DNA of 64,000 bases from Flavobacteriia bacterium (GTDB taxonomy: Bacteria > Bacteroidota > Bacteroidia > Flavobacteriales > Flavobacteriaceae). Below the pieces are notes generated by a model, which saw only the letters and a program-made list of their open reading frames with translations, was not told the DNA's origin and did not search any database. Shown piece after piece: positions 1-64,000 of the stretch; position 1 is the first letter of the stretch; each line of letters opens with the position of its first letter. Both the position numbers and the translations under genes were made by a program. The stretch spans positions 1 to 64,000 of the forward strand of contig RDXY01000006.1 in assembly GCA_004293045.1 (NCBI GenBank), written 5' to 3'.

Positions 1-5
1 AGTAA
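1..5 (+). CDS. 3' end of an upstream giant paralogue (partial)
   Basis: Only the last bases and the TAA stop (bases 3-5) are inside the window. They are followed by about 95 bases that nearly match those after the stop of the 3154-residue gene at 9906, including the terminator. I infer that the gene to the left is a paralogue, probably with the same sorting-domain C-terminus. Nothing of its body can be seen. Confidence 0.5.
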
Positions 6-65
6 TACAGTAGCACACCAGTACGGATTAAAAATCAGTACAAGTAAACTATATTATTCAATAAG

Positions 66-95
66 AGGAGGCTGTCGAAAGACAGCCTCTTTTTG
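66..95 (+). terminator. Rho-independent terminator of the upstream gene
   Basis: A perfect 9-bp stem (GAGGCTGTC / GACAGCCTC) closes a GAAA tetraloop and is followed by TTTTTG. The same hairpin recurs at 9966-9995. Confidence 0.92.
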
Positions 96-441
96 TTTGT
101 ATATTATAAATCACGTAGTTATAAAATGTAATTTAGTTTAGACGTCTCAGTTTTAATTTATTTTTGTTTTTTATCGATTTTTTTTGCATTTCAACAATTT
201 TTCAAATTAAATGTTGTGTTTAATTTTTTTTTTATTATTTTCACGAATTATTTACAATTAATTAACAAATTTCAACACAAATGAGAGGCAAATAGCTCTT
301 TGTAATGCTGCTGTTAAATAATTGTTTTTTTTAAGATTTAATGATAATTTTTTATAACTAATAAGCATATTTAATTTGTACAACATCCCTTAGGGAGACT
401 ATATATATTCAAATCAATTTTTTTTAACCAATTTTTTATTT
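96..441. other. Intergenic leader region of the giant gene
   Basis: This is very AT-rich, with long T and A runs, and I see no coding sequence. A small TCCC-TTA-GGGA inverted repeat lies at 386-396, about 45 bases before the start codon. I found no clean TAnnTTTG box, so the promoter of the 3154-residue gene is not placed. Confidence 0.5.
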
Positions 442-3400
442 ATGACAAATTTTTACCTATCGTGGAAGACCTCATGGAATGATGGTTTTTTACGAACGAA
501 TGCAGAACCTGTCACGGGTAGCGCTTCGAAAAATGGACTCCTAAAAACAGCAATGCTCTCTTTGTTGTTTTTGTTTGTCTTAGGCATATCCCAGGGATTT
601 GCCCAAACAACATTAATTAGCCCAACTGCTTCGGGTGGTTTTGAAAACGGAACTACTTTTTCAAGCAATTCATGGACGCAAGTAAACTCAGGACAGTCTT
701 TTTTTGTTGGGACATCTGCAGTAACTGCTCCATCAAATGGGTCGTATATGGCTTACACAAGTACAACTTCAGGCTCGTTAACTGCAGGAGCTGTATTTAG
801 TGTGGCTCACATTTATCAAGATGTAGTTATCCCAGCTGGAGAATCTGTACTTAATGTTTCACTTAAGTATAGAATTTCTGCGGTTGATGGAGGGTATGAT
901 TATCTTAAGGTTCATGTGGTTCCAACAACTGTGACTCCGGTTGCAGGTACAGCGTTGACAACAGGTCAATTAGGTGCAAATACAGATGGTACAACAAGTT
1001 TTGCTACGTATAACTTTTCTGGTGTCGTGCAAGCGGGAACTACACAAAGAATTGTTATCTCTTTTAGAGCAGATGGAGTATCTCCTCATGGAGCAGGTGT
1101 ATTTGATGAAATTTCAGTTGCCTCAAGAGCGCCTATTGTGCCTAGTGCGCCAATTACTTTTTCAGCAACGCAGTTAAATGCTGTAGGAATGACAATAAAT
1201 TGGGTAGACAATTCAACTAACGAAACGGCTTTTAAAATTTATCGTTCTACTGATAACGTTACTTTTGCACAAGTAGGTACTAACATTGCATCTACAACAA
1301 GTGTAGGAACGGGTCAGGTATATTCTTCTGTACAAACAGGGCTTTTACCTAGTACTACCTATTATTATAGAATTACTTCTGTTGGTGATGTTGAATCCGA
1401 TTTTTTAACTGGTTCTCAAGTTACAAATGCCCCAGGGAATTTCACTTCTATAATATCAGGAAACTTTGGATCAGCAGGAACTTGGGATGCTAATAGTGTA
1501 CCAAGTTTATATGATAATATCACAGTTAGTAATGGAACTATTGTAACTATTGATGCCGCAAGTCAAGCATCAAATAATGTTACGATCAATGGAAATGGAG
1601 CGCTTGTTTTTGGAGTAACTCCTTCTTCGTTTACCGTTAATGGAAATTTAACCGTTAACGCTAGCGGATTATTTAATGTATTTAATGGTTCAACAGGTAA
1701 AACATTAAACGTTAAGGGGAATATAGTAAATGATGGTCGTATCGATGCTTCACCTACTAGTGCCTCTTTAGTTCTTAATGGATCTACCGTGCAAACGGTT
1801 TCAGGTTCTGGAGTTTTTGGTGGTACTGTAACGTCAACATCAAATACAAATACCGTTGGAATGATTCGTAGTATTACTTTTAGTAATACGAGTACCGCCA
1901 TTCCAAATATTATTTGGCAAGCGGGTAACATCAGAATTGCAAACAACATCACATTTACAGCTTCAAGAGTAAATATGAATGGAAGCACCATGTATTGGGG
2001 GAACTTTGATGCAGTTGGTACTTTAACAGCTCTAGATGGTACGGGTATTATTAATGGAAAATTTTCAAGATGGTGGACTACAGGTCAAACAGGAACATCC
2101 CTTACATCTGGGTCTAATCCAACAACTACAACAAGTAAATTCCCATTTGTTAGTCCTTTAGGAAGTAATAGAAGTGCTTTTATATCTAGATCTTCTACTT
2201 CTACAACAGGAAACACAGCAGGGTATACAACCATGCAATATGTGGATGCACCTGCAAATACTATGACTAGTGGTTTATCAATTGTTGATGGTACTTACAC
2301 CGTAAACCAACGTTTTGACGGAAGTTGGAATGTGGCTGCTGAAAGTGGTTATGTATATGCTTCGGGAACACACGCACTTGCCATTGTTGCAAACAATGCT
2401 TTTACTCCTATAGGTACCACGGCAACGACAAGAATTGTTTCTGCTAGTGCAGTAGCGCCGGGTACGCATCAAACAGGAACTACTACACCTGGTGGGCAAA
2501 GAATCAGTCTTACTACAGCACAATTAACTTCTGGAAGTTTTTATATTGGTGCTAATGCAGCTGATATTTTACAACCATGTACAGATACGCCTGTAGCAGG
2601 TACGTTGAGTGCTGCTAATCAATATATTTGTATTGGTTCAACAACAGCACCTGCGGCCTTAACATTAACTGGTTTTACAACGAATCCTGGAATTACGTTC
2701 CAATGGGAAGAATCTGTGAATGGTGGTGCTACTTGGGCTAATGCAACAGGAGGAACAGGAGCAACAACTTCTTCGTTCACGCCTCCGGTAATTACATCTA
2801 ATATTAAATACCGTGCTAAAGTTACTTGTACAGGTTCAGGAATATCGGTTTATTCTACAGAACAACAAATTGAAATGGTTACTTGTACCTATAACACTAG
2901 TTTTACGGCTGGTGGGGTGGCTTACCAATCAATTATGCCTGCCAAAGGAGGTAGTGGTTTAGCTTACTCTGGAGCATGGACATCAACAACTAGTGGGGAT
3001 GATAATACTTCACCTGTTACCTTATTAACAGGAACAACTTTTAAATACCAAGGACGACCTATCACTGGCTTTAGAGCATGTACAAACGGTTGGATGACTT
3101 TTAATACAGCATCAACAAGTGCATCGTATACGAATGATTTAGCTGCTACTGGTCAAAATTTAGTTTTAGCTCCTTTTTGGGACGATTTAGTTTTAACTGG
3201 TCAATCGTATGCAAATAGAGATAGCTCTATGCGATATTTAGTTGAAGGAACTTTAGGTTCTGGTTCGGCGGTTATTACTATAGAATGGTCAGGTTTGGAA
3301 GTATATAATATTCCTGGTCCAGATTTAAATTTCCAAGTGAAATTATACGAGCAAGGGAATAAAATTGAATACATCTATGGTAACTTTAAAGGGTTTGATG

Positions 3401-6400
3401 GAACGTTCAATTCAGCATATACTTATAGTATAGGTATGAATGGTAGTTTACCTTCAGGTACCACAGCAGCCAATAGATTTGCTTTACAAACTGTAAACTA
3501 CAATCATTTTGATTCAGCTACTGCACCAACTGGTTTGGTAATTATGCCAAACTGTAATTCTAAATATGTCTTTACTCCAGGTACTTATACAGGTTTAACG
3601 GCAGCGCCAACTTTGGTGGCTCCAGTAAATAATGAGCCATCAGGAGCTATAGGTTTAGATGTTGCAACTGCGCCAACTTCTGAATTATGTGGGTTGTACT
3701 ATCACTCTAGATTAGCTACTGATTCAGGTAAAGGACAAGCTTGTGCGACTACAGCGGGTAACCAAGACGATGACGTTTGGTTTGCTTTTGAAACTACAGC
3801 AGCTTCTGAATATTCTATTGTAGTAAGAAGTTCTCCTTTATACGATGCGGTAGTAGAATTATTTGATGAGAATTTAAATTCAATTTCTTGTAAGAATGCT
3901 ACAGGTAGTGGATTAACGGAAACATTAACCGCTACTGGATTAATACCAGATGGAGCTTTTTATTATGTAAGAGTATTCCATAATGGTACTGGTTCTTTTG
4001 CTTCAGGTGGAAGTGGGGAGTTCAGTATTGCTATGAATGAAGTATTATACCCACCAGCAAATGATAACATCGCTGGAGCTATTGCTTTAAACGTAAATGC
4101 TTCTTGCCAAAACACTTCAAGTATTTTACCAAATACATTAGTGGCAACAGCTTCAACAACTACGCCAGCTGCTTGTAATACGGCTGATGATGACGTATGG
4201 TATTCATTTGTAGCAACTTCTACATTAAATGAAGTAAAAGTACAGTCTGGATCGGGTTACAACGCATCCATGCAAATATTATCTTCTTCAGATAATACAG
4301 CTACTGGTACCTTAACTCAGTTAGCTTGTATCAACAATACATCTACAGGAGGTTTAGAAACATATGCAGGACCATTTATTGTTGGTCAAACTTATTTTGT
4401 AAGAGTGTATCATGCAGCAACAGGTGTAGGAACAGGAAACTTTACTATTTGTGTATCGGCTCCAACTCCTTCATGTGCGGTAAATGCAACGCCTGCAAGC
4501 GCAGCTACAAATGTTAGTTTAACACCAACATTAACTTGGGCGGCGGCTACAAATGCAACACAATATGATGTATATTTAGGTAGTACTTCAGGAGCGTTGT
4601 CTCTTGTTGCAGAAAATATTACTACTACTAGTTATACTTTAACTACAAATCAAATTTTAGTTGGTTTAACTAATTATTACTGGTATGTAGTAGCAGAGAA
4701 TGTTAATGGTTCAGCTACATGTACGGTTGCAAATGAAACTTCATTTACTACACAATCAGATTGTTTAGCGCCTACTGCATTAACGTTCTTACCAACTAGT
4801 GCAACTTCAGCTACATTATCTTGGACGTCTCCAGCTATTGGACAAACGCCACAAGGGTATGAATATGCGGTTACAACTACCAACGTAACACCAACTACTT
4901 CTGGTATAGCAACTACTTTAAATTCAGTTTCAGTTGCAGATTTAACTTCAGGTTCAACCTATTATTTCCATGTTAGAAGTATGTGTGCGAATGGCGAAAT
5001 GGGATCTTGGGTAACATCAAGTGCATTAATTATGCCTGTAATTACACCAGTTCCATGGACAGAAGGTTTTGCAACAACTACCTTGCCAGCGCAATGGTCT
5101 AATAATGGATACGCTGTTGGAACTAGTGGTGGTGGTAATCCAGGGAATGCTATTTATGACAATTTATGGTCTTTCTCTACAACTGCTAATTTTGCTACAC
5201 CTAATTTAGGAACTATAGCGGCAAATCATATATTTACATTTGATTATAAATTAGTAAATTATAGTAATTCTGATGCACCTGCTGCAGGTTCAGGTAATTT
5301 TGTAGTTCAAATTTCAAACAATTTTGGAGCTACTTACACTACTTTAGAAACAGTAGATAACGATGGTGTTGCTGGTTGGAGACAAAAGTCGTATGATTTA
5401 GCAGCTTATGCAGGTCAGAACATTAAAGTAAAAATTACAGGAAATTGGATTTCAGGTGATTATTATTTAGCTTTTGATAATATTTCAGTTTCTGCACTTT
5501 GTAGCGGTATGCCTACAGCTGGAACGGTTAGCTTAGCAGCTCAGTCACTTTGTCCTGCAGCGCCTGTTGCATCAATTACGGTTACTGGTGCATCTACAGA
5601 TGCAGGTACAGCTTACCAATGGCAACAATCTACAGACAATGGTGTAGAATGGGTGGATGCAATTGGAGGAACAGGAGTAAATACGCTTACCTATTCTCCT
5701 CCGGTATTTGCTGGAGATCCAATTTTATATCGTTTAAGAGTATCTTGTACGACTACTGGTGACGAAGCGTATTCAAACACGTCTCAAGTGAATGGTAACC
5801 CTAGAGCGGTTCCGTTTACGGAAACATTTGATGATATTGCAAATTTAACAGGATGGGCGTCTACTGCAGGTTTTTATATTGGTTCTACTCGTGGAGCTAC
5901 AGGTAATTCAGGTGCAAATGCTTATATTAATATTTGGTCTAGTACCCCTTCAGGTTATTTAAGAACGGCTAATTATGGGCCTATTACAGCAGGTCAGGCT
6001 TTACGATTTGATTATCAATTATCAAATTATAGTTCACCTTATGCTGCTCCAGCAGCAGGTTCAGGAAATGTTGTAGTAGAAGTAAGTACCGATTGTGGTG
6101 CCACGTATACTACATTAGAAACTATTAATAACGACGGTGAAGCAGGTTATAGAACTAAAACCTATTCATTAGCTGCTTATGTAGGACAAAATGTAGTGTT
6201 CAAAATCACAGGAAACAGAACATCAGGAGATTACGATTTATCTATTGATAATCTTGCTGTTATTGTGCCTGCTCCTGAAGTAGTTTCTTACAGCCCAGCA
6301 ACAGTTTGTGCGGGTAGTACAGTTGCTATTTCTGGAAATTATTTTAGCACGGTTTCTAGTGTGAAAGTAGGTACTACAGAGGTGACTTTCAATATTGTAA

Positions 6401-9400
6401 ATGCTAACACAATTACATTTATTGCACCAAGTACTTCAACGGGTGGAGCTATTACAGTTACCAACCCAGGTGGACAAGGAACAAGTGTACTTAATTTAGT
6501 TATTGATAACACCGCTGCAACAATAACAGCAGACGGTCCAACCACTTTTTGTTCAGGTAGTAGTGTCGTTTTAACGGCTAGCCCTGCATCAAGTTATTCT
6601 TGGTCAACTGGAGCTACTACTCAAAGTATTACAGTTAACCAGTCTGGTAATTATTTTGTTTCGCTAATTAATGCAAACAGATGTGAATTACGTTCAGAGT
6701 CAGTTGCTGTAACCGTAAACCCAGTTTCTTCTGAAACAGTTGAGCAATCAGCATGTGGTAGTTATACCTGGCCATTATCTGGTCAAACGTATACAGAAAG
6801 TGGAGATTACACTTATGTGACAACTAACGCAAGTGGATGTCCACATACTACAACGTTACAATTAATGATTAGTAATGGTGCTATTACGGCTCAGCCAACA
6901 GCGCCTACTATTTGTAAATCAATTGGAGCAACAGCTAGTATTTCGGTTGAAGTTTCAGGAGCTAACTTACCTACTTATCAGTGGCAAGTTCAAACTGCTT
7001 CTAGTACAACTGTTTGGACAAACATTCCACTTTTAGTTGCAGGTAATCCTAATCCTAACTATTCTGGAATTACTTCAGAAACTTTGAATATTACAAGAAC
7101 TACTACATCGCTTCCTGCTACAGGAACGAAGTATAGAGTACTTGTTACTTCATGTGGTACAACGGTAACTTCAAACGCAGTAGCATTAGCAGAATTGGCA
7201 ACATTGTCAAAAGCTGCAACTATTACTGTAGTTAGTTCATTGTCTCCTGCATTAACAACATGTGAAGGTTCAACAGTGAACTTATCATTAGCAGCAGGAA
7301 GTATTGGAAATGTTCAATGGGAAATGTCAACGACATCTGCTACGGCAGGCTTTACTCCTGTTGGATCATTAATTCAACAATCAGCTTTGTCAGCTGTAAA
7401 CACAATAATGTCATTTACTACGCCAACTTTAACTCAAGATACTTGGTTTAGAGTAGTGGCAACAAATGGTGTTTGTAATTCAGCTACCTCTGCAGCTATT
7501 AAAATTAATGTTAGTACTATACCAACAGCAGGAACAATTGCTGGAGGAGACGTAACAGTTTGTGCGCCACTTGTGGCACCATCAAGTACTGTATTTGATG
7601 TAACTGGAAGTGCTTTGGCAAATTCAATTACAAACAGTACAACATTATCATTAGAAGGCACTACTTCAGGAACAACCATAGTTTGGGAAAGAAGTATAAA
7701 CTTTGTAAACGCTACTAATGCTGCACCAGTATGGTCAACGGTTACTAATGTAACGGCTACTACAGCAACAGGTGCTTCTTATTCAGGTGCAGGTACTGGA
7801 GAATTAGTGGTAGGTAACTTAGCTGCAACTACATGGTTTAGAGCACGCGTAATCAATGGCGCTTGTTCAGTAATAACAGATGAAGTTAAGATTACAGTTT
7901 CACCAGCTGCTAAAGCTGGAACAGTTACTTCTCCAACAACAGTATGTACAGGAGGAAGTATTACATTTACTTCAGCGGCTTACACAGGAAGTGCGATTGC
8001 ATGGGAAGTTTCAACTACTTCTGCAACTACAGGATTTAGTACTGTAGCAGGAGCTAACGAACTTACTTTTACCATGGATAATGTTACTTTAGTAGCACCA
8101 GGTCAAAAATTCTATGTAAGAAGTGTGGTAACAAGCGGTGCTTGTACACAAGCACGTAGCGCTGTAAGAACTGTTACAGTTGATCCAACATCAGTAGCAG
8201 GAACGGTTACTGGAGCAGGAATCGTTTGTTCAGGTGGCGGAGCTACATTAAGATTAGCAGGAAATGTTGGATTAATCCAATGGGAATATTCTGCTGATGG
8301 TGTAGATTATGTGAATGTACCAACTGCAACAGTAGGAAGTGCATCATCATTTAGCACTACATCTGCTACTGGTACTTCAGCAACTTATGTTCTTACGAAT
8401 GTAACAGCGGGTACTTACTTTAGAGCTAAAGTAACAAGCGGATCTTGTTCAGCAAGTTATACAACACCAGTCCAAATGGTTATTGGAACAGAAGCTGTAG
8501 CAGGAACTGCAACAGCAGCAAGTTCTACAATTTGTGCAGCGAGTGGTACTACAATCACCTTAACAGGTAATGTTGGTGCAATTCAATGGCAAAGATCATC
8601 AAACTGGACGGCTGCAACTCCAACATGGACAGCGGTTTCAAATGCAACAGCATCAACGTTAGCAACAGGAAACTTAACAGCTTCTACCGCTTTCAGAGCC
8701 GTGGTGTCAATAGGTTCATGTTCAACAGTTGAAACTGAACCAGTGATTATTACAGTGAATCTTGCAGCAAAAGGAGGAACAGCAGCTATTGCTACTACAA
8801 ATCCAGGAGCTACAATATGTACAGGATCTAGTAAAACATTAACCGTAACAGGAAATGTTGGATCGATCCAATGGCAAATGTCTACAGAATCTGCTACAGC
8901 AGGATTTGAAAACGTTGCTGGAGCAACTAGTTCACCATATACGTTTACTAACATTACTCAAAACACTTGGTTTAGAGCGGTAGCAACAAGTGGTGTATGT
9001 ACTGCAACAGCAAATTCAACAGTTGTAGCAATTACAGTAACGACAATTCCAGCAGTAGCAGGAACAATTTCAGGTAACAACTCGGTTTGTACTGCAACAG
9101 GTTCTACGTTAACTCTAGAAGGGTCAACAGGAAGTATTGTTTGGCAAAAAGCAGTTGCTCCATTTACAACATGGGCAGCGATTTCAGGTCAAACAACTGC
9201 AACGCTAGCAACAGGAAACTTAACAGCTACTACAGCGTTCAGAGCAATTTTAACTAGCGGTTCATGTACGGCTACAACAAGTGCTTATGTAGTAACAGTT
9301 TCTCCATTAGCTAAAGCAGCTACGATATCTGGAAACAGTTTAATTAAAACATTAGCAAATGCAATTTGTACTACTACTACAGCACCTTTAACTTTAGGTT

Positions 9401-9906
9401 CAGGTACAGTAGGTACAATTCAATGGCAGTTTTATAATGCTGGAAGTTCAGCTACAGCTGTAACTGCAACAACGGCCAATTCATTTACATGGACAGATAT
9501 TGCTGGAGCAAATGCATCAGTATTAGCAGCATCAAGTGCTACTATCGGTAATGTTTGGTTCCGTGTTAAAATGACAAGTGGACCATGTTCAGTTGTGTAT
9601 AGCGCGCCAGTTAATGTTTGGTTTAAATCTTGTACTACAAGAGAGGAAGCTCCAATCACAATTTTTACAGTGAAAGGATATCCAAACCCATATTCTACAA
9701 ACTTCACATTATCGTTAGATACACCGAGCGATTCTATGGTTTATGTAAGTGTATTTGATATGACAGGAAAACTGATCGAGAATAGAGAAGTTATGCCTTC
9801 AGATTTAGAAGACTTACAGTTAGGTTCAAATTGGTCTACAGGTGTTTACAATGTTATTGTAACACAAGACAACCAAGTGAAAACTATGAGAATGATTAAA
9901 AAGTAA
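442..9906 (+). CDS. Giant T9SS-secreted multidomain surface protein
   Basis: A 3154-residue cell-surface or secreted protein. Residues 1-54 form a long signal peptide with a hydrophobic core and a GISQGFAQ cleavage region; the N-terminal extension before the core is unusual, but ATG 442 keeps it in frame. Visible modules are a MAM/jelly-roll-like domain (about 55-225), a fibronectin type III domain (about 235-330), a beta-solenoid-like stretch (about 340-720), two pre-peptidase-like domains (about 1060-1330), FN3 domains (about 1335-1530), two more jelly-roll domains (about 1540-1690 and 1790-1930), an IPT/TIG-like domain (about 1945-2030) and about nine Ig-like repeats with FRAxVTSGxC and IQWQ-type motifs (about 2200-3060). 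The C-terminus (YPNPYSTNFTLSLD...) is a type A T9SS sorting domain. The architecture suggests adhesion or a glycan-binding role, but no catalytic domain was recognised. Its tail and terminator are duplicated at the window start. Confidence 0.93.
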   Translation: MTNFYLSWKTSWNDGFLRTNAEPVTGSASKNGLLKTAMLSLLFLFVLGISQGFAQTTLISPTASGGFENGTTFSSNSWTQVNSGQSFFVGTSAVTAPSNGSYMAYTSTTSGSLTAGAVFSVAHIYQDVVIPAGESVLNVSLKYRISAVDGGYDYLKVHVVPTTVTPVAGTALTTGQLGANTDGTTSFATYNFSGVVQAGTTQRIVISFRADGVSPHGAGVFDEISVASRAPIVPSAPITFSATQLNAVGMTINWVDNSTNETAFKIYRSTDNVTFAQVGTNIASTTSVGTGQVYSSVQTGLLPSTTYYYRITSVGDVESDFLTGSQVTNAPGNFTSIISGNFGSAGTWDANSVPSLYDNITVSNGTIVTIDAASQASNNVTINGNGALVFGVTPSSFTVNGNLTVNASGLFNVFNGSTGKTLNVKGNIVNDGRIDASPTSASLVLNGSTVQTVSGSGVFGGTVTSTSNTNTVGMIRSITFSNTSTAIPNIIWQAGNIRIANNITFTASRVNMNGSTMYWGNFDAVGTLTALDGTGIINGKFSRWWTTGQTGTSLTSGSNPTTTTSKFPFVSPLGSNRSAFISRSSTSTTGNTAGYTTMQYVDAPANTMTSGLSIVDGTYTVNQRFDGSWNVAAESGYVYASGTHALAIVANNAFTPIGTTATTRIVSASAVAPGTHQTGTTTPGGQRISLTTAQLTSGSFYIGANAADILQPCTDTPVAGTLSAANQYICIGSTTAPAALTLTGFTTNPGITFQWEESVNGGATWANATGGTGATTSSFTPPVITSNIKYRAKVTCTGSGISVYSTEQQIEMVTCTYNTSFTAGGVAYQSIMPAKGGSGLAYSGAWTSTTSGDDNTSPVTLLTGTTFKYQGRPITGFRACTNGWMTFNTASTSASYTNDLAATGQNLVLAPFWDDLVLTGQSYANRDSSMRYLVEGTLGSGSAVITIEWSGLEVYNIPGPDLNFQVKLYEQGNKIEYIYGNFKGFDGTFNSAYTYSIGMNGSLPSGTTAANRFALQTVNYNHFDSATAPTGLVIMPNCNSKYVFTPGTYTGLTAAPTLVAPVNNEPSGAIGLDVATAPTSELCGLYYHSRLATDSGKGQACATTAGNQDDDVWFAFETTAASEYSIVVRSSPLYDAVVELFDENLNSISCKNATGSGLTETLTATGLIPDGAFYYVRVFHNGTGSFASGGSGEFSIAMNEVLYPPANDNIAGAIALNVNASCQNTSSILPNTLVATASTTTPAACNTADDDVWYSFVATSTLNEVKVQSGSGYNASMQILSSSDNTATGTLTQLACINNTSTGGLETYAGPFIVGQTYFVRVYHAATGVGTGNFTICVSAPTPSCAVNATPASAATNVSLTPTLTWAAATNATQYDVYLGSTSGALSLVAENITTTSYTLTTNQILVGLTNYYWYVVAENVNGSATCTVANETSFTTQSDCLAPTALTFLPTSATSATLSWTSPAIGQTPQGYEYAVTTTNVTPTTSGIATTLNSVSVADLTSGSTYYFHVRSMCANGEMGSWVTSSALIMPVITPVPWTEGFATTTLPAQWSNNGYAVGTSGGGNPGNAIYDNLWSFSTTANFATPNLGTIAANHIFTFDYKLVNYSNSDAPAAGSGNFVVQISNNFGATYTTLETVDNDGVAGWRQKSYDLAAYAGQNIKVKITGNWISGDYYLAFDNISVSALCSGMPTAGTVSLAAQSLCPAAPVASITVTGASTDAGTAYQWQQSTDNGVEWVDAIGGTGVNTLTYSPPVFAGDPILYRLRVSCTTTGDEAYSNTSQVNGNPRAVPFTETFDDIANLTGWASTAGFYIGSTRGATGNSGANAYINIWSSTPSGYLRTANYGPITAGQALRFDYQLSNYSSPYAAPAAGSGNVVVEVSTDCGATYTTLETINNDGEAGYRTKTYSLAAYVGQNVVFKITGNRTSGDYDLSIDNLAVIVPAPEVVSYSPATVCAGSTVAISGNYFSTVSSVKVGTTEVTFNIVNANTITFIAPSTSTGGAITVTNPGGQGTSVLNLVIDNTAATITADGPTTFCSGSSVVLTASPASSYSWSTGATTQSITVNQSGNYFVSLINANRCELRSESVAVTVNPVSSETVEQSACGSYTWPLSGQTYTESGDYTYVTTNASGCPHTTTLQLMISNGAITAQPTAPTICKSIGATASISVEVSGANLPTYQWQVQTASSTTVWTNIPLLVAGNPNPNYSGITSETLNITRTTTSLPATGTKYRVLVTSCGTTVTSNAVALAELATLSKAATITVVSSLSPALTTCEGSTVNLSLAAGSIGNVQWEMSTTSATAGFTPVGSLIQQSALSAVNTIMSFTTPTLTQDTWFRVVATNGVCNSATSAAIKINVSTIPTAGTIAGGDVTVCAPLVAPSSTVFDVTGSALANSITNSTTLSLEGTTSGTTIVWERSINFVNATNAAPVWSTVTNVTATTATGASYSGAGTGELVVGNLAATTWFRARVINGACSVITDEVKITVSPAAKAGTVTSPTTVCTGGSITFTSAAYTGSAIAWEVSTTSATTGFSTVAGANELTFTMDNVTLVAPGQKFYVRSVVTSGACTQARSAVRTVTVDPTSVAGTVTGAGIVCSGGGATLRLAGNVGLIQWEYSADGVDYVNVPTATVGSASSFSTTSATGTSATYVLTNVTAGTYFRAKVTSGSCSASYTTPVQMVIGTEAVAGTATAASSTICAASGTTITLTGNVGAIQWQRSSNWTAATPTWTAVSNATASTLATGNLTASTAFRAVVSIGSCSTVETEPVIITVNLAAKGGTAAIATTNPGATICTGSSKTLTVTGNVGSIQWQMSTESATAGFENVAGATSSPYTFTNITQNTWFRAVATSGVCTATANSTVVAITVTTIPAVAGTISGNNSVCTATGSTLTLEGSTGSIVWQKAVAPFTTWAAISGQTTATLATGNLTATTAFRAILTSGSCTATTSAYVVTVSPLAKAATISGNSLIKTLANAICTTTTAPLTLGSGTVGTIQWQFYNAGSSATAVTATTANSFTWTDIAGANASVLAASSATIGNVWFRVKMTSGPCSVVYSAPVNVWFKSCTTREEAPITIFTVKGYPNPYSTNFTLSLDTPSDSMVYVSVFDMTGKLIENREVMPSDLEDLQLGSNWSTGVYNVIVTQDNQVKTMRMIKK
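7200..9620 (+). repeat. Tandem Ig-like repeat modules inside the giant gene
   Basis: Roughly nine modules of 80-110 codons share the pattern AGT...CxG...LTGNVGxIQWQxS...TxFRAxVTSGxC. Some pairs match at nucleotide level: GCAACAGGAAACTTAACAGC occurs near 8660 and again near 9204. This suggests recent duplication or gene conversion rather than old divergence. Confidence 0.85.
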
Positions 9907-10001
9907 TACAGTAGCTTGCAAGTACGGATTACCATCTGTATAAGTAAACTATATTATTCAATAAGAGGAGGCTGTCGAAAGACAGCCTCTTTTTGTTTGT
10001 A
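9902..10001 (+). repeat. Direct repeat copy 2 (gene tail plus terminator)
   Basis: Near-identical to bases 1-101. It begins in the last codons of the 3154-residue gene and ends just after the terminator T-run. Downstream of it the two loci have no evident similarity. Confidence 0.95.
9966..9995 (+). terminator. Rho-independent terminator of the giant gene
   Basis: GAGGCTGTC and GACAGCCTC pair around a GAAA loop and are followed by TTTTTG, about 60 bases after the stop codon. It is identical to the hairpin at 66-95. Confidence 0.93.
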
Positions 10002-10660
10002 TGGCTTTGTAATAAAAATCTTATTTTCTTTCCTGAGTACCGTTTGTACTTTAATTCCTCTTATATAAATATACTTTTTTGAGGCACAAGATTTCATTGT
10101 AAACTCTACAATAGTCCTATTGTAAAATTTTTACTTTAGTAGTACTTCGATTTTTTTGACATTCTCAAAACATTAGGACCTGATTTTGCAGGACTTAATA
10201 TACTAGTAAAACAGCAATCTATTATGATTCGTTTGTATTAAGCAATGATTGCTTTTGCTTTTGATATTAATGCTGTATAGGCTATTATAAAAGAGCTGTT
10301 TACTCCAAAACACGGGTAAGATTGAAGCGATACGTTTCAATTCGTTAGTTATTTCCTTCTTCTAAATAGTTGAATTGGATTAATTTCTTACTTGATTTTG
10401 AATCTTTTCGTTAATTATATTCTATAAATATTTAACTCACTACATCAAATTCTTAAAAAAATTTTTGCCAATGCTAAAGCAAAGTAAGTTTGGTATTACA
10501 AATTAGCCCATTTATAGCTTAATTGCGCCATTTTGTTCTTTAAAGCTTGAATAATATTATAAATTATATTTTCTGTGTTATATGAGTAATAAAACAATAA
10601 TAGAAGTGAAGTAAATAGTTAGTTTATCGAATATAAAAATGACAATTAAATTTGTGGGAT
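10002..10660. other. Gene-poor intergenic stretch
   Basis: About 660 AT-rich bases with stops in all frames and no ORF in the track. I read both strands for a decayed transposase or a structured RNA and recognised neither. A short minus-strand run (near 10220-10340) reads as protein-like before hitting stops, but it matches nothing I know. It may be degenerate sequence left by rearrangement next to the duplicated giant genes. Confidence 0.5.
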
Positions 10661-10694
10661 AAAAAAAGCACCAACTTTTGTTGGTGCTTTTTTT
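10661..10694 (-). terminator. Terminator of the small T9SS cargo gene
   Basis: AAAAAAAGCACCAAC and GTTGGTGCTTTTTTT pair around a TTTT loop. The hairpin has an A-run on one side and a T-run on the other, so it could work from either strand. It lies about 60 bases past the stop of the minus-strand gene at 10755. Confidence 0.9.
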
Positions 10695-10754
10695 ATTATC
10701 TTATTCTAATCTTGATTATTGTGAATTTTTACAAGAATCAAATCAGTAGAAAAG

Positions 10755-11672
10755 TTATTCAATAACTAATTTTTTTGTAGCAGTTTTACCCTCTTCAGTA
10801 ATTTTTACTAAATAAACTCCAGCAGCTAATCCAGAAACGTTCATAGTAGAATTGATTTCTTTCGAGCTTAAAACTTCTTTACCTAAAATATCGAAAATTT
10901 GAACAGACTTGTTTGCATTTGCAGTAGATGTAAAGAATAGAGTATCTCCTTTTAAAGGATTTGGATACATAGTTAAACCCTCGATTGCATTAAATGACGA
11001 AGAAGACATTGTAGCTATTTCTCCAGAAATTACTACATCATCTATACTAAAGTTACCACCAGCAGCTTCAGCATTCCATCCATAAAATCTTAAAGTAGTA
11101 GGCCCAGTTAAATTTGTGAAAGAAGGACCAGATAAGGTTATAGTGCTTCCAACTTGTGCCGTATTATTATCTGTATTATAAAAGAAAATATTTCCAGTAA
11201 CCACCTCTAAACTAGCATTTGCAGGATTAATTGATGCAGGTAAATTAGCTGCATAGGAATCTACACTAGATCTAACCGAATAATTTCTAACACCTGTTCC
11301 AGATCTTTGTACTTTAAACGTAACCCCTGTTAAATTATATGCCGTGCCAGAAGTTGGCGTAATAGTTACTTGATAGTAGGTAGTTGCACTTAATGCACCT
11401 GTAAAATTAGCAAATACATTATCTCCATTTGCCGCTCCTAATGGTTGATTTGCAAAAGCAAATCTTCCAGTACTAGCAGAATTAGTTGGTGGAGAAGTTG
11501 TGTTAACCGCTGAAAAATTCCCAAAAGTTAAACCAGCCACAGTTGGAACAGGGCTTGGATCAGTAGCTCCAGATGTAGCCGTAACACCAGCAAAATCATA
11601 AGTCGCTGTAAATACTTGAGCAAATGAAATAGAAGCAAATGAAATAAAAAATAATGTGTATAGTTTTTTCAT
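10755..11672 (-). CDS. T9SS sorting-domain secreted protein
   Basis: A 305-residue exported protein. Residues 1-19 are a signal peptide ending SISFAQ. Residues about 20-215 form one beta-rich jelly-roll-like domain that ends with a FSIDDVVISGEI motif of the kind seen in PEP-CTERM/T9SS cargo. The last 75 residues (LTMYPNPLKGDTLFF to KKLVIE) are a type A T9SS sorting domain with the usual YPNP start and GVYLVKI strand. No active-site motif is visible, so its substrate is unknown. It stands alone with its own -7 box and terminator. Confidence 0.9.
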   Translation of the reverse strand: MKKLYTLFFISFASISFAQVFTATYDFAGVTATSGATDPSPVPTVAGLTFGNFSAVNTTSPPTNSASTGRFAFANQPLGAANGDNVFANFTGALSATTYYQVTITPTSGTAYNLTGVTFKVQRSGTGVRNYSVRSSVDSYAANLPASINPANASLEVVTGNIFFYNTDNNTAQVGSTITLSGPSFTNLTGPTTLRFYGWNAEAAGGNFSIDDVVISGEIATMSSSSFNAIEGLTMYPNPLKGDTLFFTSTANANKSVQIFDILGKEVLSSKEINSTMNVSGLAAGVYLVKITEEGKTATKKLVIE

Positions 11673-11696
11673 AGTATTTTTTTTTAAATTAATTTA

Positions 11697-11704
11697 CAAA
11701 TATA
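11697..11704 (-). promoter_or_regulatory. -7 box of the small T9SS cargo gene
   Basis: The minus strand reads TATATTTG, a perfect Bacteroidota TAnnTTTG -7 element, about 25 bases before the ATG at 11672. No clear -33 TTG was found at the expected spacing. Confidence 0.6.
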
Positions 11705-11990
11705 AAAATTTTGATTTAATAAAATAAAGTATTTTATATTATTTAATAAATTCTTAATTTCGATCATTAATTCTATCAAAAAATGCAAATATTTTTTATA
11801 ATCTTTATCTTGAATTAAGGGAAAGCTATATTAAATTATTTGGAATAAATTTACTATAAAGTGGTTTAGCCTATAAAAAAAATTAATTTATAGTCTAAAT
11901 TTATCATATGCCTTAAGAACAGAACTATTAAATAAAGAAAGCAACAAATAAAATAAAGATTCTGTACCAGGCTTTATTGAATGCCATATG
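11705..11990. other. Intergenic region between divergent genes
   Basis: AT-rich sequence between the T9SS cargo gene and the aminotransferase gene. No ORF, hairpin or repeat stands out. Confidence 0.5.
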
Positions 11991-11994
11991 ATTT

Positions 11995-12024
11995 TTGTAA
12001 AATTCACTGCTTTGACTATATTTG
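11995..12024 (+). promoter_or_regulatory. Promoter of the DegT-type aminotransferase gene
   Basis: A TTTTTG ending at 11997, a 19-base spacer, then TATATTTG at 12017-12024. This is a full match to the Bacteroidota primary sigma consensus (TTG, about 19 bases, TAnnTTTG). The ATG follows 15 bases later, so the leader is very short. Confidence 0.82.
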
Positions 12025-12039
12025 TAAAAAAATTACAGT

Positions 12040-13179
12040 ATGTCCCAATCTAAAATTTGGTTGTCTTCCCCTCACATGGGAGGTACCGAACAAAAATATA
12101 TACAAGAAGCGTTTGAAGCCAATTGGGTAGCTCCTTTAGGGCCTAATGTTAATGGTTTAGAGCAAGATTTACAAGACTATCTTTCTAGTGACGCTAAAGT
12201 TGGGGCCCTAAGTTCAGGAACCGCAGCCATCCATTTAGGGTTAGTTTTGTTAGGTGTGAAGGCCGGAGACGAGGTAATCTGTCAAAGTATGACGTTTTCA
12301 GCCTCTGCTAATCCAATTTTATATTTGGGTGCCACTCCTATTTTTATTGATAGTGAAACACAAACCTGGAATATTTGCCCGGTTGCTTTAGAAGAAGCCA
12401 TTGAAGATCGAATTAGCAAAGGGAAAAAACCTAAAGCTATTATCGCGGTGCATTTATATGGAGTGCCGTATCAAGTGGAGGAAGTAAGAGCTGTAGCCGA
12501 TAAATATAACATACCTATACTAGAGGATAGCGCAGAAGCTTTAGGAAGCTCATACAAATTACAAAAATGCGGGACCTTTGGTGATGTTGGGGCGCTATCA
12601 TTTAATGGCAATAAAATTATAACTACTTCAGGGGGTGGGGCTATCGTAACAAGAACCACTGCACAAAAAGAGAAAGCCGTTTTTTATGCCACACAATCCC
12701 GAGACAATGCACCACATTACCAACATTCCGAAATTGGCTACAACTACCGCATGAGTAATATTTGTGCAGGAATCGGAAGAGGACAAATGGAAGTCTTAGA
12801 TAAGCACGTAAGTTTACGAAGAGCCATGCACGATTTTTATGTGGAAGCCTTTAAGGGAATTGAAGGGGTAACCGTTTTTTCAGCTCCTAATGAAGATTAT
12901 TTTGCCAATTATTGGCTAAGTGCAATCACCATTGATGCATCTCAAACAAATGGGATTACCAGAGAAACCTTACGTTTGGCTTTTGATGCTGCTAATATCG
13001 AATCACGTCCTTTGTGGAAACCTATGCATATGCAGCCTATATTTGAAAAATACCCTTACTTTGGAGGCACTATAGCTGAAACCCTATTTGAAAACGGTTT
13101 GTGTTTGCCTTCAGGATCTAATCTTACCGATAGTGATCGTAATCGAATTTTAACGGTAATTAAGCAAGTGTTTGGTTAA
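12040..13179 (+). CDS. DegT/DnrJ/EryC1/StrS-family PLP aminotransferase
   Basis: A 379-residue pyridoxal-phosphate sugar aminotransferase of the family that aminates keto-sugar nucleotides for polysaccharide or glycan synthesis. Visible hallmarks are SSGTAAIHLGL (phosphate-binding region, about 58-68), VHLYGVP (about 137-143), LEDSAEALGS (about 161-170, the PLP-pyridine Asp) and SFNGNKIITTSGGG, in which K192 should form the Schiff base. The length is normal. The family normally sits in O-antigen, capsule or protein-glycosylation clusters; here it is a single gene with its own promoter and no sugar genes beside it. The exact sugar substrate cannot be told; PglE/LegC-like enzymes are the nearest I recognise. 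Confidence 0.92.
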   Translation: MSQSKIWLSSPHMGGTEQKYIQEAFEANWVAPLGPNVNGLEQDLQDYLSSDAKVGALSSGTAAIHLGLVLLGVKAGDEVICQSMTFSASANPILYLGATPIFIDSETQTWNICPVALEEAIEDRISKGKKPKAIIAVHLYGVPYQVEEVRAVADKYNIPILEDSAEALGSSYKLQKCGTFGDVGALSFNGNKIITTSGGGAIVTRTTAQKEKAVFYATQSRDNAPHYQHSEIGYNYRMSNICAGIGRGQMEVLDKHVSLRRAMHDFYVEAFKGIEGVTVFSAPNEDYFANYWLSAITIDASQTNGITRETLRLAFDAANIESRPLWKPMHMQPIFEKYPYFGGTIAETLFENGLCLPSGSNLTDSDRNRILTVIKQVFG

Positions 13180-13515
13180 GAGGTAATCTATTATTGGAAG
13201 ATTTGAAAATTCAATTTTGTTTTTCAATATTAAAAGCATATAACTTCCTTGTACCTATACAGCTCGTAATTCTTTCATAAAATTACTTTCATGTTTTTGT
13301 TTTAAACGCAAAGTAACGTTATAGTTTTTAATACTTTAAATTTAGCTTTTTGGTTTTTCTTAAAGGTAGTTGTTATTTTCTTGGATCATTTCGTAATTAA
13401 ATAGTAAAGACGATCTCTTTAACTTAAAACTTTAAAAATTTTTACCAAAATAATATAAAAAATCACATTTATAAATACATTTTTTTTACATTCGCACAAA
13501 ATAAGTATTTTAATT
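13180..13515. other. Intergenic region
   Basis: AT-rich, no ORF. A weak TTGAAAA / TTTTCAA inverted repeat lies just after the aminotransferase gene. TACATTCG at 13487-13494 is a near-match to a -7 box 22 bases before the next ATG, but no -33 element accompanies it. Confidence 0.45.
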
Positions 13516-14157
13516 ATGAAAACAACGAGTAAACTCCATTTAATATTTTTTTTAATAGTGTCTTCCTCACTTTATTCTCAGTTCAACGTGAATAATATTT
13601 CAGTTGAAGCGAACTATGGGTACACTGGAGCCATTTCACCTTATCAGAAAAAATTCAAATCTAATTTTTCGGGGATGAATCACTACGATATCGGAATACG
13701 ATATATGTTCAATGAAAAATTTGGTGCAAAAGTTACTTACAAATTAGATCATTTTGTAAACGATCCAGGTGGAAAAATAGGAATTACTTACAGTACGGTT
13801 TCATTATCAGGAATTTATAACGTTGGAAAACAATTGGGACTTACCTATTTAACTAGAGATAAACTAGGACTTAATGCCCACTTGGATGCCGGAATGGCAT
13901 TAGGTTATATTATTGGTAAAAATGATAGTGAGCAGGTAAAAATAGTAGGAATTGGAATTACACCGATGTATAAGGTTTCTAATAAATTAGCTCTAACGGC
14001 GGATTACACCCATAGCTTTACCATGGATCAAAATTATGGTTTTGACGGAATAATTTTAAATAAAAACAAAACGCCACAATCAGGGGCCTTTTATAACTTT
14101 TCAGTGGGTTTAATTTATTATTTAGGTGAAAACAAATACCATTCAGATTGGTATTAA
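13516..14157 (+). CDS. Outer-membrane beta-barrel protein
   Basis: A 213-residue protein with a signal peptide (residues 1-21, ending SSLYSQ) followed by alternating amphipathic beta-strands: HYDIGIRYMFNEKFGAKVTY, STVSLSGIYNV, and a final FYNFSVGLIYYLG strand. This pattern fits a small eight-stranded outer-membrane barrel like the N-terminal half of Bacteroidota OmpA-type porins. There is no C-terminal OmpA peptidoglycan-binding domain. The gene is monocistronic, with a terminator directly after it. Its exact function is unknown. Confidence 0.8.
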   Translation: MKTTSKLHLIFFLIVSSSLYSQFNVNNISVEANYGYTGAISPYQKKFKSNFSGMNHYDIGIRYMFNEKFGAKVTYKLDHFVNDPGGKIGITYSTVSLSGIYNVGKQLGLTYLTRDKLGLNAHLDAGMALGYIIGKNDSEQVKIVGIGITPMYKVSNKLALTADYTHSFTMDQNYGFDGIILNKNKTPQSGAFYNFSVGLIYYLGENKYHSDWY

Positions 14158-38478: not shown

Positions 38479-38673
38479 TTAACTTTTTTTTTTTGAAAAT
38501 AAATAAACAATTACAATTGCTAAAATAATAATAATTGGTATGTAGTTGTTAATAGGCACGTCTTCTACATCATCATCAAAATCCGGTTGTCCGAACAAAT
38601 TTATTGTATCGAACAAGAACATAAACAAAAAACATATTAGTTTATGTTTTCTAAGAATTAACTTTTTATCCAT
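38479..38673 (-). CDS. Small membrane-anchored protein (PID-CTERM-like)
   Basis: 64 residues. An N-terminal signal/hydrophobic segment (about 12-29) is followed by an acidic spacer QPDFDDDVEDV, then VPINNYIPIIIILAIVIVYLFSKKKS, a C-terminal membrane helix with a basic end. The PINNYI-helix-KKK layout resembles the short Bacteroidota PID-CTERM family that I recall as being encoded beside T9SS proteins. The start codon overlaps the end of the broken T9SS gene upstream by 16 bases, so it was probably translated together with it. Confidence 0.7.
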   Translation of the reverse strand: MDKKLILRKHKLICFLFMFLFDTINLFGQPDFDDDVEDVPINNYIPIIIILAIVIVYLFSKKKS

Positions 38674-40598
38674 TTTTTTACAATATTTTTGGAGTCCTTA
38701 CTAATTTCTATTTGGTAAATCCCTGTTGCTAAATTTTCAGGGACTTTACAATTTATTACATTATTTTCTATTGCATTTAGTTCCACATCAAGTAACTGTC
38801 CTAATGAATTGTACACTTTTACAGTATAGTTTGAAGTATCTAATGGCAATTGTAAATTAAAATAATTACTAGATGATGGATTAGGAAATAAATTAATGGA
38901 ATCAACATTAAAATCATCAGTGTGTAAGGCTTCAGTATTATAGACAATTTCAAATCTATCATAGGCAGTAGAAGCGGAATTAGCAACATCAACAGAAAAA
39001 TTGTAATTTACAATTGGGTTTACTTCAGTATATGTTTGAGTGAATTTATCATGTATGTATGGTGTTATCCCGTTATAATTGTTCAGTTTAGCTACTAAAG
39101 TGTAGTTTGAGTAACGATATGAGGTAAAATTTAATGGGTAAATAGTATTGATTTGCGGGGATTGGGAACTTGCGATACTCAAATTTGTATTATCCACAAG
39201 TACAGAAATAGTTTTTTCTAGATTAGTTAATTTTTTTGCATCATTAGAATCAACTGAATTTGAATAGGTAGTTCCAAAATACAAAAGAGCACCATCTAAA
39301 GAAATTGGCTGTTGGTTAAAACTAGATCCTTCATACAAAGTAAGACGTAAAGAACCTAAATTTGCGCTAGATTGGGAATGATTAGTCCTATATACATTTT
39401 CGTTGGTTGCATCAGTATATTTATTATTTTCATTAAAGGTTATACTTGCTGCTCCATTTGAATTGGTTGTTACAAAACAAGCTTGCATAGGTTGTAAATA
39501 TTGATTTACATAGGAACCATCAACATTATTTTCATCGTTTAAAAAGGTATAGGTTACATAAGCTCCTCTTCCGTTTGCTCCTCCTACTTTTGGATCCCAA
39601 ACATAGTAAAAATTGCTATTTAAATTTGTACTGTTAGTTAATACGTCACGCATATCCACCGGAGATTGATACGGATTGCCTATAAAATTATAACCACCAT
39701 TTACTTGGCTTAAAGAAGAATTTGTATATGTTCCAATTTTTAAAGTTCCTGTAGTTCTTAAAGTTGTTACTGAAGGAGTTGCTGCATTATTATTTAAATC
39801 TACAGCACGACTTCCCCTAATCATTATTCTGTAAGGATCACCAGCTACAAATGTATTAACATTTGTATAGGAAATGGCCGACCAAGCCTGAGTGTTATTA
39901 TTATAAGTAAACATAGATGGTGCACCGGATTGTTGCGCATCAAAACCATTAGCGCCAGTTACTGAACCCGTAATATGAGTACCATATCCAGGGGACGTGT
40001 TTAAATTATTAGCATACGGAGTTGTTGTATTGTTTTGGTTCTCTTGCCAATTATATTTTATAGAAGTTGAAGTTGTTACTGGCGAACTTAAAAATCTAAA
40101 AGCACGCTTTGAAGGAATGTATCGTTCAACAACTATATTTTGGACCGTCCCACCAGTCGATTGCTTCACAATGGCTGTTTTGGTCGCGGTACTTCTCATA
40201 ATTAATTTTCCGTCACCGTCAATAGTGCCTTGAGTAGCTTGTAAGCCATCTGTAATAATTAAGTTTCCTGAAGTAACACTTGCCGTTCCTTCGGTCTTAT
40301 TAAGCTCTATTCTTTTAACAATAGTGGAAGAGCCAAAATCAAATGTTTGAGCAGGGCTATTCCCTGTAATATTTAGAGTACCATCAACTAAAGTTAAGGT
40401 TCCATTATTATCAATATTCCCAGCAACAAATAACTTACCAGTACCTAAAGTAATCGTACCATCATTTATAATATCACTTGCAGAATATTAATTTTCTGAA
40501 TTTGAAATATAAATTTGACTTCCTGCGCTAACTTTTAATTGGGCAAAGCAACAAGTACATGTTGCTATAATAAAAAATAAAAATAATTTTACTCTCAT
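38658..40598 (-). pseudogene. T9SS sorting-domain protein gene broken by one in-frame stop
   Basis: The full reading frame runs from ATG at 40598 to the stop at 38658, 646 codons. It starts with a signal peptide MRVKLFLFFIIATCTCCFAQ. Codon 37 is TAA (40490-40488), after which the same frame continues without any shift (YSASDIINDGTITLG and NGTLTLVDGTLNITGN, a beta-solenoid-like region). The ORF track lists only the part from Met 40199 (513 residues). The C-terminus (LFPNPSSSNYFNLQLPL to IVKKWIKS) is a type A T9SS sorting domain, and the middle resembles large surface proteins with FIGNPYQSPVDM motifs. Without readthrough, the product lacks export and is dead. Sequencing error is the alternative explanation. 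Confidence 0.88.
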
Positions 40599-61427: not shown

Positions 61428-64000
61428 TTATTCCTTGATTAATTTCTTACTTACAGAAATTGAATCAGAATTGGTAATTTTTACAATATAAATTCCTTTA
61501 GCTAAGTTAGAAATATTTATTTCTTTGTTTGCCACACAATTATTTTCAGTTTGAATTAATTGTCCGGTTAGCGAATAAATTTCCACTTTTTTAGCATCTA
61601 CAGAAATTTGAAAAGCATTCATGGTAGGATTTGGATACAGTTCTACTTTAGAAATTGTTTCAAAACTATCAGTAGCTAATGCTGCAGAAACTTGATTTCC
61701 AAAAATTCGGTATTCTCCTGGGCCTAATGTAATTTGCATGTTTGTTGCAGTTACGTTAGTTGTTGTATTATCCATTAAATTATACCAAGTTCCTGTATAA
61801 GGAAAATCCGCTGTAATACTTTGTGCTGCTACGGAATAGTTAGCTAAAATAACTACATTTTTTAATTGCGAAGCAGGTAAGGTATTATCATAGATATAAA
61901 TTCTTTGTTTGATATTATTTCCGTTTATACTAATAGCATAATCACCGTTAAAAACAGGATCATTTTTTTTCATTTTTATGAATTTTGCATAATCGGAATA
62001 AATGGAGCTTCTTGGCGAAGTGGTAAGCCAGTTTTCCACCCATTGTGGCTGTTGTTTTGTTGCTAATTTGCAATCGCCAGGTGTTGAATCAGAATCACTA
62101 TTTACAGTACCATTTGTACAAGCAAAAATAGAATCGTCCATTCCTAATTCTTGAAAATGCCAAATCATTTTTGGGCCAGGAATTAATAAGCTAGTGGCAC
62201 CTATAGTTGCCATTCTGTTTAAGGCATTATTTAAATTTCCGCCAACAGGTGCTGTTCCTGCACTATTTCCATAAGTAAATGCTTGGTACATTAATCGGTC
62301 TTTATCATGACTTTCGGAATACCCAATTAAACGTTTTCCGGTAAATCCTCTACTTACGTGTCCCATTCTTGTAATGTCTCCATTTGTAGAATATCCTAAA
62401 GCAAGTTGTTTATAAGGCTCGTATAATTCGCCCCACATCATAATTCCTTTACCTTCAGATAACCTGTAATTCGCCCATTGTTGTTCTTCAGAATCAGAAC
62501 CTAAATGTTCGAAAATATTATAAAAATTTGCATCCAAATTCCAAGTGTAATCTGCGTAATCTTTAAGTATTTCGACTCTATCCGCTTGATAGTTATTAGT
62601 ACAATTTTGATCACTAGCCGTACAATTTTGAGTAAATCCTTTGGTTAAATCCCAACGAAAACCATCAATTTTAAATTCGGTTATCCAGTGTTTAATGGTT
62701 TTTTTTACATATTCTTTTGTGTAATTTGAAGCATGATTAAAATCTTCACCTACACTATAACTATGTTTTGCTACGGTATTAAAATAAGGATTTTCTGTGC
62801 TTGGACTTCCCCAGCCGTCTCCATCAGGATCATTCATCCACATTCTTATCATAGGGTTTCTTCCGAAGGCATGGTTAAAGGCAATATCTAATATTACAGC
62901 TATCCCGTTTTGATGACATAAATCTACAAATTCTTTAAATTTATTTTTTGTCCCATAAAATTTATCTAATGCCATGTGATAGGCGGTATTATAACCCCAA
63001 CTTTCGTTTCCTTCAAATTCCATAATAGGCATTAATTCGATGGCGTTAACCCCTAAGTTTTTGAAATAATCTATTTTATCAATTAAGTCTTGATAATTTC
63101 TATCCGAATCAAAATCTCTTACAAGAACTTCATAGATAACTAATTTGTCTTTATTTGGTTTTGTAAAACTTGTATTTTGCCATATATATGGACTTTGTCC
63201 TGTCTGTAAAACAGTAATTTCTCTATCTTGACCAATTGGATAAGCAGGAATATTAGGATAACTTCCAGATGGAATATATGGGTCATCATATGAAGATAGG
63301 ACCAAAGTGGAACATGGATCGGCTGTTTTTACTATACTAGGTGAATTTGCAATTGGTGTTGTATCCACTACCCAATATTGATATAAATATTCTGTTCCTG
63401 AAGTTAAGTTATTTAATTCTAACCAAAATTTCCCATTAGTTGGATCTTTTTTCATGGCATAACTTGAAGTAGGTTGCCAGTTATTGAAGGTTCCCGCTAC
63501 ATATACATAATCTTTTCCTGGTGCTTCTAAAACTAAAGTGGCTTTTGTAGCGTCGGTAGAATTATAATTTATTCCTATTTCTAAACCATTCGGTAAGGCT
63601 TGAGAAAGTATTCCAGGATTAATAATAGCACTAAATCTTTTAGTATAAGTTGTGCCGTTTTGTGTTATTTGTAATTCATAATTTTTATTAGAAGTAATAT
63701 TTACATCAGTATAGGTATAAGTTGCCCCTATAGAAGTATTTATACTAGTTCCGTTAGCAAATAAATTATAAGTGGCATTTCCATTTGTGTTATTGGCTGT
63801 AATTAGTAAGTTTTGCCCAGAATTTAATAGTGTAGTGCTGTTTTCGTTGGGTGCCGTTAAGGTGGCTTGATAAGCGCCTACATTTAATTGCAAATCTACG
63901 GTTTGTTGGGCTCCTGTAGCGCTTCTAAAAACAATATTGACTTTAGATATAGCGCCAGTAGTTACTGAGTAAAAATTTTGTAACGATGGATTTAAATCTA
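61428..64000 (-). CDS. GH13 alpha-amylase-family protein with T9SS sorting domain (partial)
   Basis: The ORF track starts at an internal TTG (63893), but the frame stays open to the window edge (SATGAQQTVDLQLNVGAYQ), so the gene is cut off at its 5' end. In order, the protein shows Ig-like N-terminal domains, a CBM48-like domain (VYVAGTFNNWQPTSSYAM), then a GH13 barrel. GH13 marks are VILDIAFNHAFGRNP, GFRWDLTKG (nucleophile Asp), MWGELYEP (acid/base Glu) and SESHDKDRL (third acid). A C-terminal beta domain and a type A T9SS sorting domain (VELYPNPTMNAFQISVD to SVSKKLIKE) follow. It would cleave alpha-glucans such as starch or glycogen outside the cell. Confidence 0.94.
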   Translation of the reverse strand, partial: DLNPSLQNFYSVTTGAISKVNIVFRSATGAQQTVDLQLNVGAYQATLTAPNENSTTLLNSGQNLLITANNTNGNATYNLFANGTSINTSIGATYTYTDVNITSNKNYELQITQNGTTYTKRFSAIINPGILSQALPNGLEIGINYNSTDATKATLVLEAPGKDYVYVAGTFNNWQPTSSYAMKKDPTNGKFWLELNNLTSGTEYLYQYWVVDTTPIANSPSIVKTADPCSTLVLSSYDDPYIPSGSYPNIPAYPIGQDREITVLQTGQSPYIWQNTSFTKPNKDKLVIYEVLVRDFDSDRNYQDLIDKIDYFKNLGVNAIELMPIMEFEGNESWGYNTAYHMALDKFYGTKNKFKEFVDLCHQNGIAVILDIAFNHAFGRNPMIRMWMNDPDGDGWGSPSTENPYFNTVAKHSYSVGEDFNHASNYTKEYVKKTIKHWITEFKIDGFRWDLTKGFTQNCTASDQNCTNNYQADRVEILKDYADYTWNLDANFYNIFEHLGSDSEEQQWANYRLSEGKGIMMWGELYEPYKQLALGYSTNGDITRMGHVSRGFTGKRLIGYSESHDKDRLMYQAFTYGNSAGTAPVGGNLNNALNRMATIGATSLLIPGPKMIWHFQELGMDDSIFACTNGTVNSDSDSTPGDCKLATKQQPQWVENWLTTSPRSSIYSDYAKFIKMKKNDPVFNGDYAISINGNNIKQRIYIYDNTLPASQLKNVVILANYSVAAQSITADFPYTGTWYNLMDNTTTNVTATNMQITLGPGEYRIFGNQVSAALATDSFETISKVELYPNPTMNAFQISVDAKKVEIYSLTGQLIQTENNCVANKEINISNLAKGIYIVKITNSDSISVSKKLIKE

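Follow-up and report, generated by a model that had tools for sequence, protein, structure and literature searches.

The 3' end of a probable second giant T9SS surface-protein gene and a proposed exchangeable 3' module at the start of a contig from a Flavobacteriia bacterium

Background

The closest described systems to the locus studied here are RemA, a gliding adhesin of Flavobacterium johnsoniae, and its homologue RemZ (PMC10994853; PDB 8gl6, 8gl8). In Flavobacterium psychrophilum, surface proteins with leucine-rich repeats (LRR) are encoded by tandem genes that vary in number with the strain, from 16 to 23 ORFs, and short reads pile up on these genes to about tenfold coverage (PMC8400371). 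Surface proteins of Porphyromonas gingivalis, including the gingipain adhesin domains, undergo domain rearrangement and allelic exchange and are mosaic across strains (PMC5266723).

The present locus resembles each of these systems in part. It encodes a protein of 3154 residues which is like RemA and RemZ in the profile of its Ig-like units, in a match to RemA residues 42-188 and in a type A T9SS tail, the likeness covering only part of the protein. It is two to three times longer than RemA and RemZ and a Pfam scan of it found no lectin family, so that we regard it as RemA-related and not as RemA. Whereas the LRR proteins of F. psychrophilum come in many copies, the proteins here are few, giant, built on Ig-like arrays and unrelated in their front parts. 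Exchange in P. gingivalis concerns a single pathogen species; here it concerns different species and paralogues.

By the window we mean the whole stretch of 64,000 nucleotides that was analysed. It corresponds to bases 1-64,000 of contig C52 (77,154 bp) in a single metagenome-type assembly of 55 contigs which is 75.6% complete. Since base 1 of the window is base 1 of the contig, the gene lying to the left is absent from C52. In this study, we describe the tail with which the window opens, its second copy at the end of the 3154-residue gene, and a second giant gene on contig C37. We put at roughly 0.7 the probability that the window opens at the 3' end of a second giant T9SS surface gene of the same modular RemA/RemZ-related adhesin family, that this family has an exchangeable 3' module and that the gene on C37 is the missing left-hand gene.

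Results

A search of the whole genome assembly aligned window 1-102 with 9902-10002 at 91% identity (E 9.6e-35), and the same search with window 1-102 found no third copy of the tail in the assembly. The repeat is a real observation. Both copies open at a stop codon (AG-TAA), in agreement with the original prediction that the match begins at the end of a coding sequence. The same prediction had called the match nearly base for base. This is true of the terminator half, where 61 bases are exactly identical (42-102 and 9942-10002) and form the longest exact repeat within window 1-10100, the next-longest having 23 bases; it is not true of the first 41 bases, to which the alignment confines all 10 mismatches. 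The exact block holds the terminator hairpin GAGGCTGTCGAAAGACAGCCTC, which is present twice in the window and absent from all of 100 shuffles, and about 22 bases 5' of the hairpin are likewise identical between the copies. Past base 102 the two copies run into unrelated sequence. As the contig end cuts the match, its observed length is set by that end and not by biology. The opening tail and the next family gene, that of the 3154-residue protein, are 340 bases apart; C52 lacks the body of the left-hand gene.

Table 1. Position, strand and supporting evidence of the features at the left end of the window
Feature	Position	Strand	Evidence
End of upstream gene	1..5	+	Last two bases of a Lys codon and TAA stop, at contig end; aligned with 9902-9906
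Tail copy 1: 3' end of upstream gene, 3' UTR, intrinsic terminator	1..102	+	91% identity to 9902-10002; hairpin fold z -7.3; homologous G115 tail
Giant surface protein gene, 3154 aa: hydrophobic leader, fn3/G8-like and MAM-like regions, Ig-like array, type A T9SS tail	442..9906	+	ORF, family scans, RemA match
C-terminal array of about nine or ten Ig-like units, seven aligned, with invariant Cys-Trp-Cys	6883..9660	+	Alignment; model pLDDT 78; profile matches to RemA and RemZ
40 bases identical to the last 40 of C37	7084..7123	+	Sole exact match of at least 18 bases between C37 and window 1-10100
Type A T9SS sorting domain (Por_Secre_tail, TIGR04183)	9679..9891	+	Residues 3080-3150, 38 bits against a cut-off of 27
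Tail copy 2: 3' end of the 3154-aa gene, 3' UTR, terminator	9902..10002	+	Search, alignment, folding
Convergent secreted protein, 305 aa, with its own T9SS tail; neighbour outside the repeat	10755..11672	-	PF18962, 56.8 bits
DegT/DnrJ sugar aminotransferase	12040..13179	+	Family scan; locus comparison in relatives

A repeat exactly at a contig end, where misjoins are common, might be an artefact in which the 3154-residue gene's 3' end was wrongly assembled a second time. We find this hardly credible, given the 10 differences between the copies, the unrelated sequence that follows after base 102, and the presence of such a tail in a second species (G115), just upstream of DegT. In that genome, contig C19 begins 15 bases before the apparent stop of such a gene, and its tail, homologous to window 1-100, is located upstream of homologues of DegT and of P0002, a gene at window 13516-14157.

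Between stop and terminator the sequence can fold into a further hairpin, with an internal AA/AA loop, in both tails (window 6-52 and 9907-9953) and in G115. A conserved RNA element after the stop was considered and rejected: the three sequences, too few to show selection, hold a single covarying pair, which is no better than in shuffles. Its covariance model matched mainly terminators elsewhere, and an Rfam search returned no family.

The 3154-codon ORF was confirmed as real. Tested as a T9SS substrate, its C-terminal sorting domain (residues 3080-3154) scored above the curated cut-offs of both PF18962 (Pfam, 38.1 bits against 27) and TIGR04183 (NCBIfam, 36.4 against 23). A hydrophobic segment LLKTAMLSLLFLFVLGISQGFAQ near residues 33-55, a candidate N-terminal export signal, was spotted by eye, and the genome encodes the SprA translocon (PF14349, 423.9 bits, contig C6). 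One Ig-like unit was modelled as a seven-stranded sandwich (pLDDT 78) which resembles Fn3 and Ig domains, with no match below E 0.001. The profile of the units detects residues 613-698 of RemA (E 5.8e-15) and 307-393 of RemZ (E 4.1e-13) in F. johnsoniae; both were reached by the repeat profile only, a phmmer search of the PDB with the whole array as a single sequence giving no match. Residues 841-1002 align with the N-terminal part of RemA (42-188, E 4.1e-8). Judged by this homology, the protein is likely a surface adhesin exported via SprA/PorV, whose Ig-like array would form a stalk beside the anchor. Two further T9SS-tailed proteins are encoded in the window, one of 513 aa (38658-40199) and one of 821 aa with an alpha-amylase domain (61428-63893).

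C37 (9,066 bp) was retrieved when residues 1-853 of the 3154-residue protein were used as a query against the genome. On this contig an ORF extends from position 3135 to the right end and comprises the first 1,977 codons of a giant gene without a stop. Both giants begin with MTNFY. The last 40 bases of C37 match the array of the window gene perfectly (Table 1); the match stops precisely at the end of C37, and identity just before it is about 70%. By BLASTP the last 109 residues encoded on C37 are 51% identical to residues 2127-2227 of the 3154-residue protein, and the two proteins share 30% identity over 401 middle residues and 30% over the first 236. What the two have in common is the leader, a single domain in the middle and the C-terminal array. 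The prediction that the left gene is a close paralogue is borne out in so far as a second giant exists whose contig ends in a perfect match to the array, and goes too far in so far as the bodies of the two proteins are mostly about 20-30% identical. Shared promoter or leader DNA of the giant genes was also considered; past the start codons there is only short AT-rich similarity, which is unconvincing.

The break of C37 inside a perfect match looks like an assembly break in a shared repeat, and the shared 3' end probably explains why the assembly breaks exactly at the window start. The exact match at the start of C52 extends for only 14 bases before the first mismatch, so that this break, unlike the end of C37, is not a simple k-mer overlap. 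An assembler k-mer signature was rejected: end overlaps among 110 contig ends vary from 18 to 99 bases and no single k fits both breaks. A DNA search of the genome with window 6800-9901 detected no other copy of the remaining array; contigs C10, C16, C31 and C38 (1.7-2.9 kb), whose first and last 600 bases read N, were left out of the contig-end comparison and of the array check. Since the genome contains one giant without its 3' part and one 3' tail without its gene, joining C37 to C52 is the most economical reading and the C37 gene the best candidate for the left-hand gene, from which we infer a joined protein of roughly 2,900 residues. The genome being incomplete and some contig ends reading N, another family member may supply the left-hand tail. 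In a synteny check of the join with P0006 and P0002 in relatives, the neighbours of C37 were not kept beside the locus; in G081 and G262, homologues of the C37 genes and of the window locus lie on different contigs, tens of kilobases apart, so that conserved gene order lends the join no support.

The upstream gene could instead be a different T9SS-tailed gene, perhaps not a giant one, that shares only its last codons and terminator with the 3154-residue gene, through local gene conversion or because the terminator type is common in the genus. At 75-96% identity, the hairpin part alone turns up in about 50 of 400 genomes from the genus. The terminator part makes up the 61-base exact block, all the differences falling in the first 41 bases, and a non-giant T9SS tail is encoded close by, at 10755-11672. 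We nevertheless consider a different gene unlikely, as the bases just before the hairpin are identical too, the UTR 5' of the hairpin is common to the window and G115 and to no other genome, and C37 and the contig start would complement each other as the two parts of a single gene.

Tails of this kind are shared in other genomes of the comparison. In G002, four paralogues on different contigs are 76-89% identical over their last 600 bases, and two of them are 94% identical over 66 bases past the stop, terminator included. Contigs of this genome end inside the tail, at contig starts in C7, C9, C12 and C53, and C8, C21 and C42 hold short end-limited frames. Contig breaks in the tail recur across relatives, as a repeat would lead one to expect. 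An adjacent pair of such genes is present on contig C3 of G002, and the closed chromosome of G010 shows that tandem T9SS paralogues exist within the genus: its adjacent paralogues of 594 and 244 aa are 67% identical at the N-terminus and 72% at the C-terminus, the middle not being shared. The expectation of T9SS paralogues with shared ends is supported by the array match between C37 and the window and the arrays, tails and terminators shared among relatives.

Orthologues of the C37 gene permit its C-terminus to be compared between species. The orthologue in G262 is complete (2396 aa) and 60% identical over C37 residues 5-1935; that in G064 is 50% identical over residues 10-1906. Between C37 and G262, identity is about 70-80% across residues 1800-1900 and then drops to about 15-25%. 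Past the motif (R)VPVTATV the three proteins have unrelated C-termini: C37 continues into Ig-like units of the type of the window protein (P0001), G262 into NNVFFFIGNL-type repeats and a tail of its own, and G064 into DADGDGYG-type repeats and further domains. As orthologues match for about 1,900 residues and then carry unrelated C-termini, the C-terminal module appears to be exchangeable; on the alignments, at least two of the three lineages have acquired a different C-terminus at a single boundary. The comparison supports an exchange of C-terminal modules in the course of evolution, as distinct from antigenic switching.

In G262 the C37 orthologue is followed after about 80 bases by a giant of 2367 aa and then by a PorP/SprF-like gene (L289, 1781-16151), so that two giants adjoin.

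Adjacent genes might also swap segments within a strain, making this a locus of phase or antigenic variation. Shared tails and arrays offer homology for recombination, and C37 carries a serine recombinase gene. That gene belongs to a conserved tRNA-associated cassette which is unlinked to the giants in the relatives examined, no inverted repeats stand out around the start of the C37 gene, and we judge such a switch very improbable. A search for invertible DNA near the recombinase gave only AT-rich imperfect repeats.

The cassette itself (C37 1-2616, L048) consists of the serine recombinase, truncated where the contig ends, and proteins of 284 and 145 aa. It is conserved at 60-95% in G081, G086, G195 and G064 and partly in G039. 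In those relatives the ORF of the recombinase extends into a gene for tRNA-Leu or tRNA-Met, and by its arrangement the cassette looks like a tRNA-integrated element.

Between the end of the glycan cluster and P0002, relatives carry large but unrelated surface genes: two adjacent ones of 1663 and 758 aa in G081, one of 1420 aa in G241 and one of 1951 aa in G262. The site upstream of P0002 (window 10000-13516; L176, L179, L180) looks like a variable surface-protein site and is possibly a hot spot.

Discussion

We propose that the members of this family consist of gene-specific N-terminal and central regions followed by an exchangeable 3' module, which would run from the Ig-like array through the type A T9SS sorting domain and a short 3' UTR to an intrinsic terminator. 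Among members, this module would be copied by duplication and by homologous recombination or gene conversion, with the effect that genes with unrelated fronts may end alike. An assembler would be unable to place the repeated 3' part twice: C37 would halt where its gene enters the array, C52 would start just past the shared part, and the assembly would contain a single copy of the common stretch, which could be as long as about 2.8 kb. The proteins would be exported through SprA/PorV and displayed at the surface as Rem-type adhesins.

More tentatively, in this group of Flavobacterium the array, sorting domain, UTR and terminator could form a portable 3' cassette, recombination at a fixed domain boundary swapping whole C-termini, with stalk and anchor, onto unrelated giants. 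The one front with three back ends in three species (C37, G262, G064) is the example we have in mind; we hold this extension to be possible, at less than even odds. The shared ends fit ordinary domain shuffling of adhesins and are ordinary in kind, with a clean example of a module swap.

The locus is one place at which giant Bacteroidota adhesins can be seen to be assembled from swappable parts. A shared 3' module that breaks contigs suggests why giants go missing from short-read genomes, and a suggested consequence is that the copy number and architecture of giant genes are under-counted. The exact junction VPVTAT provides a testable site of module exchange.
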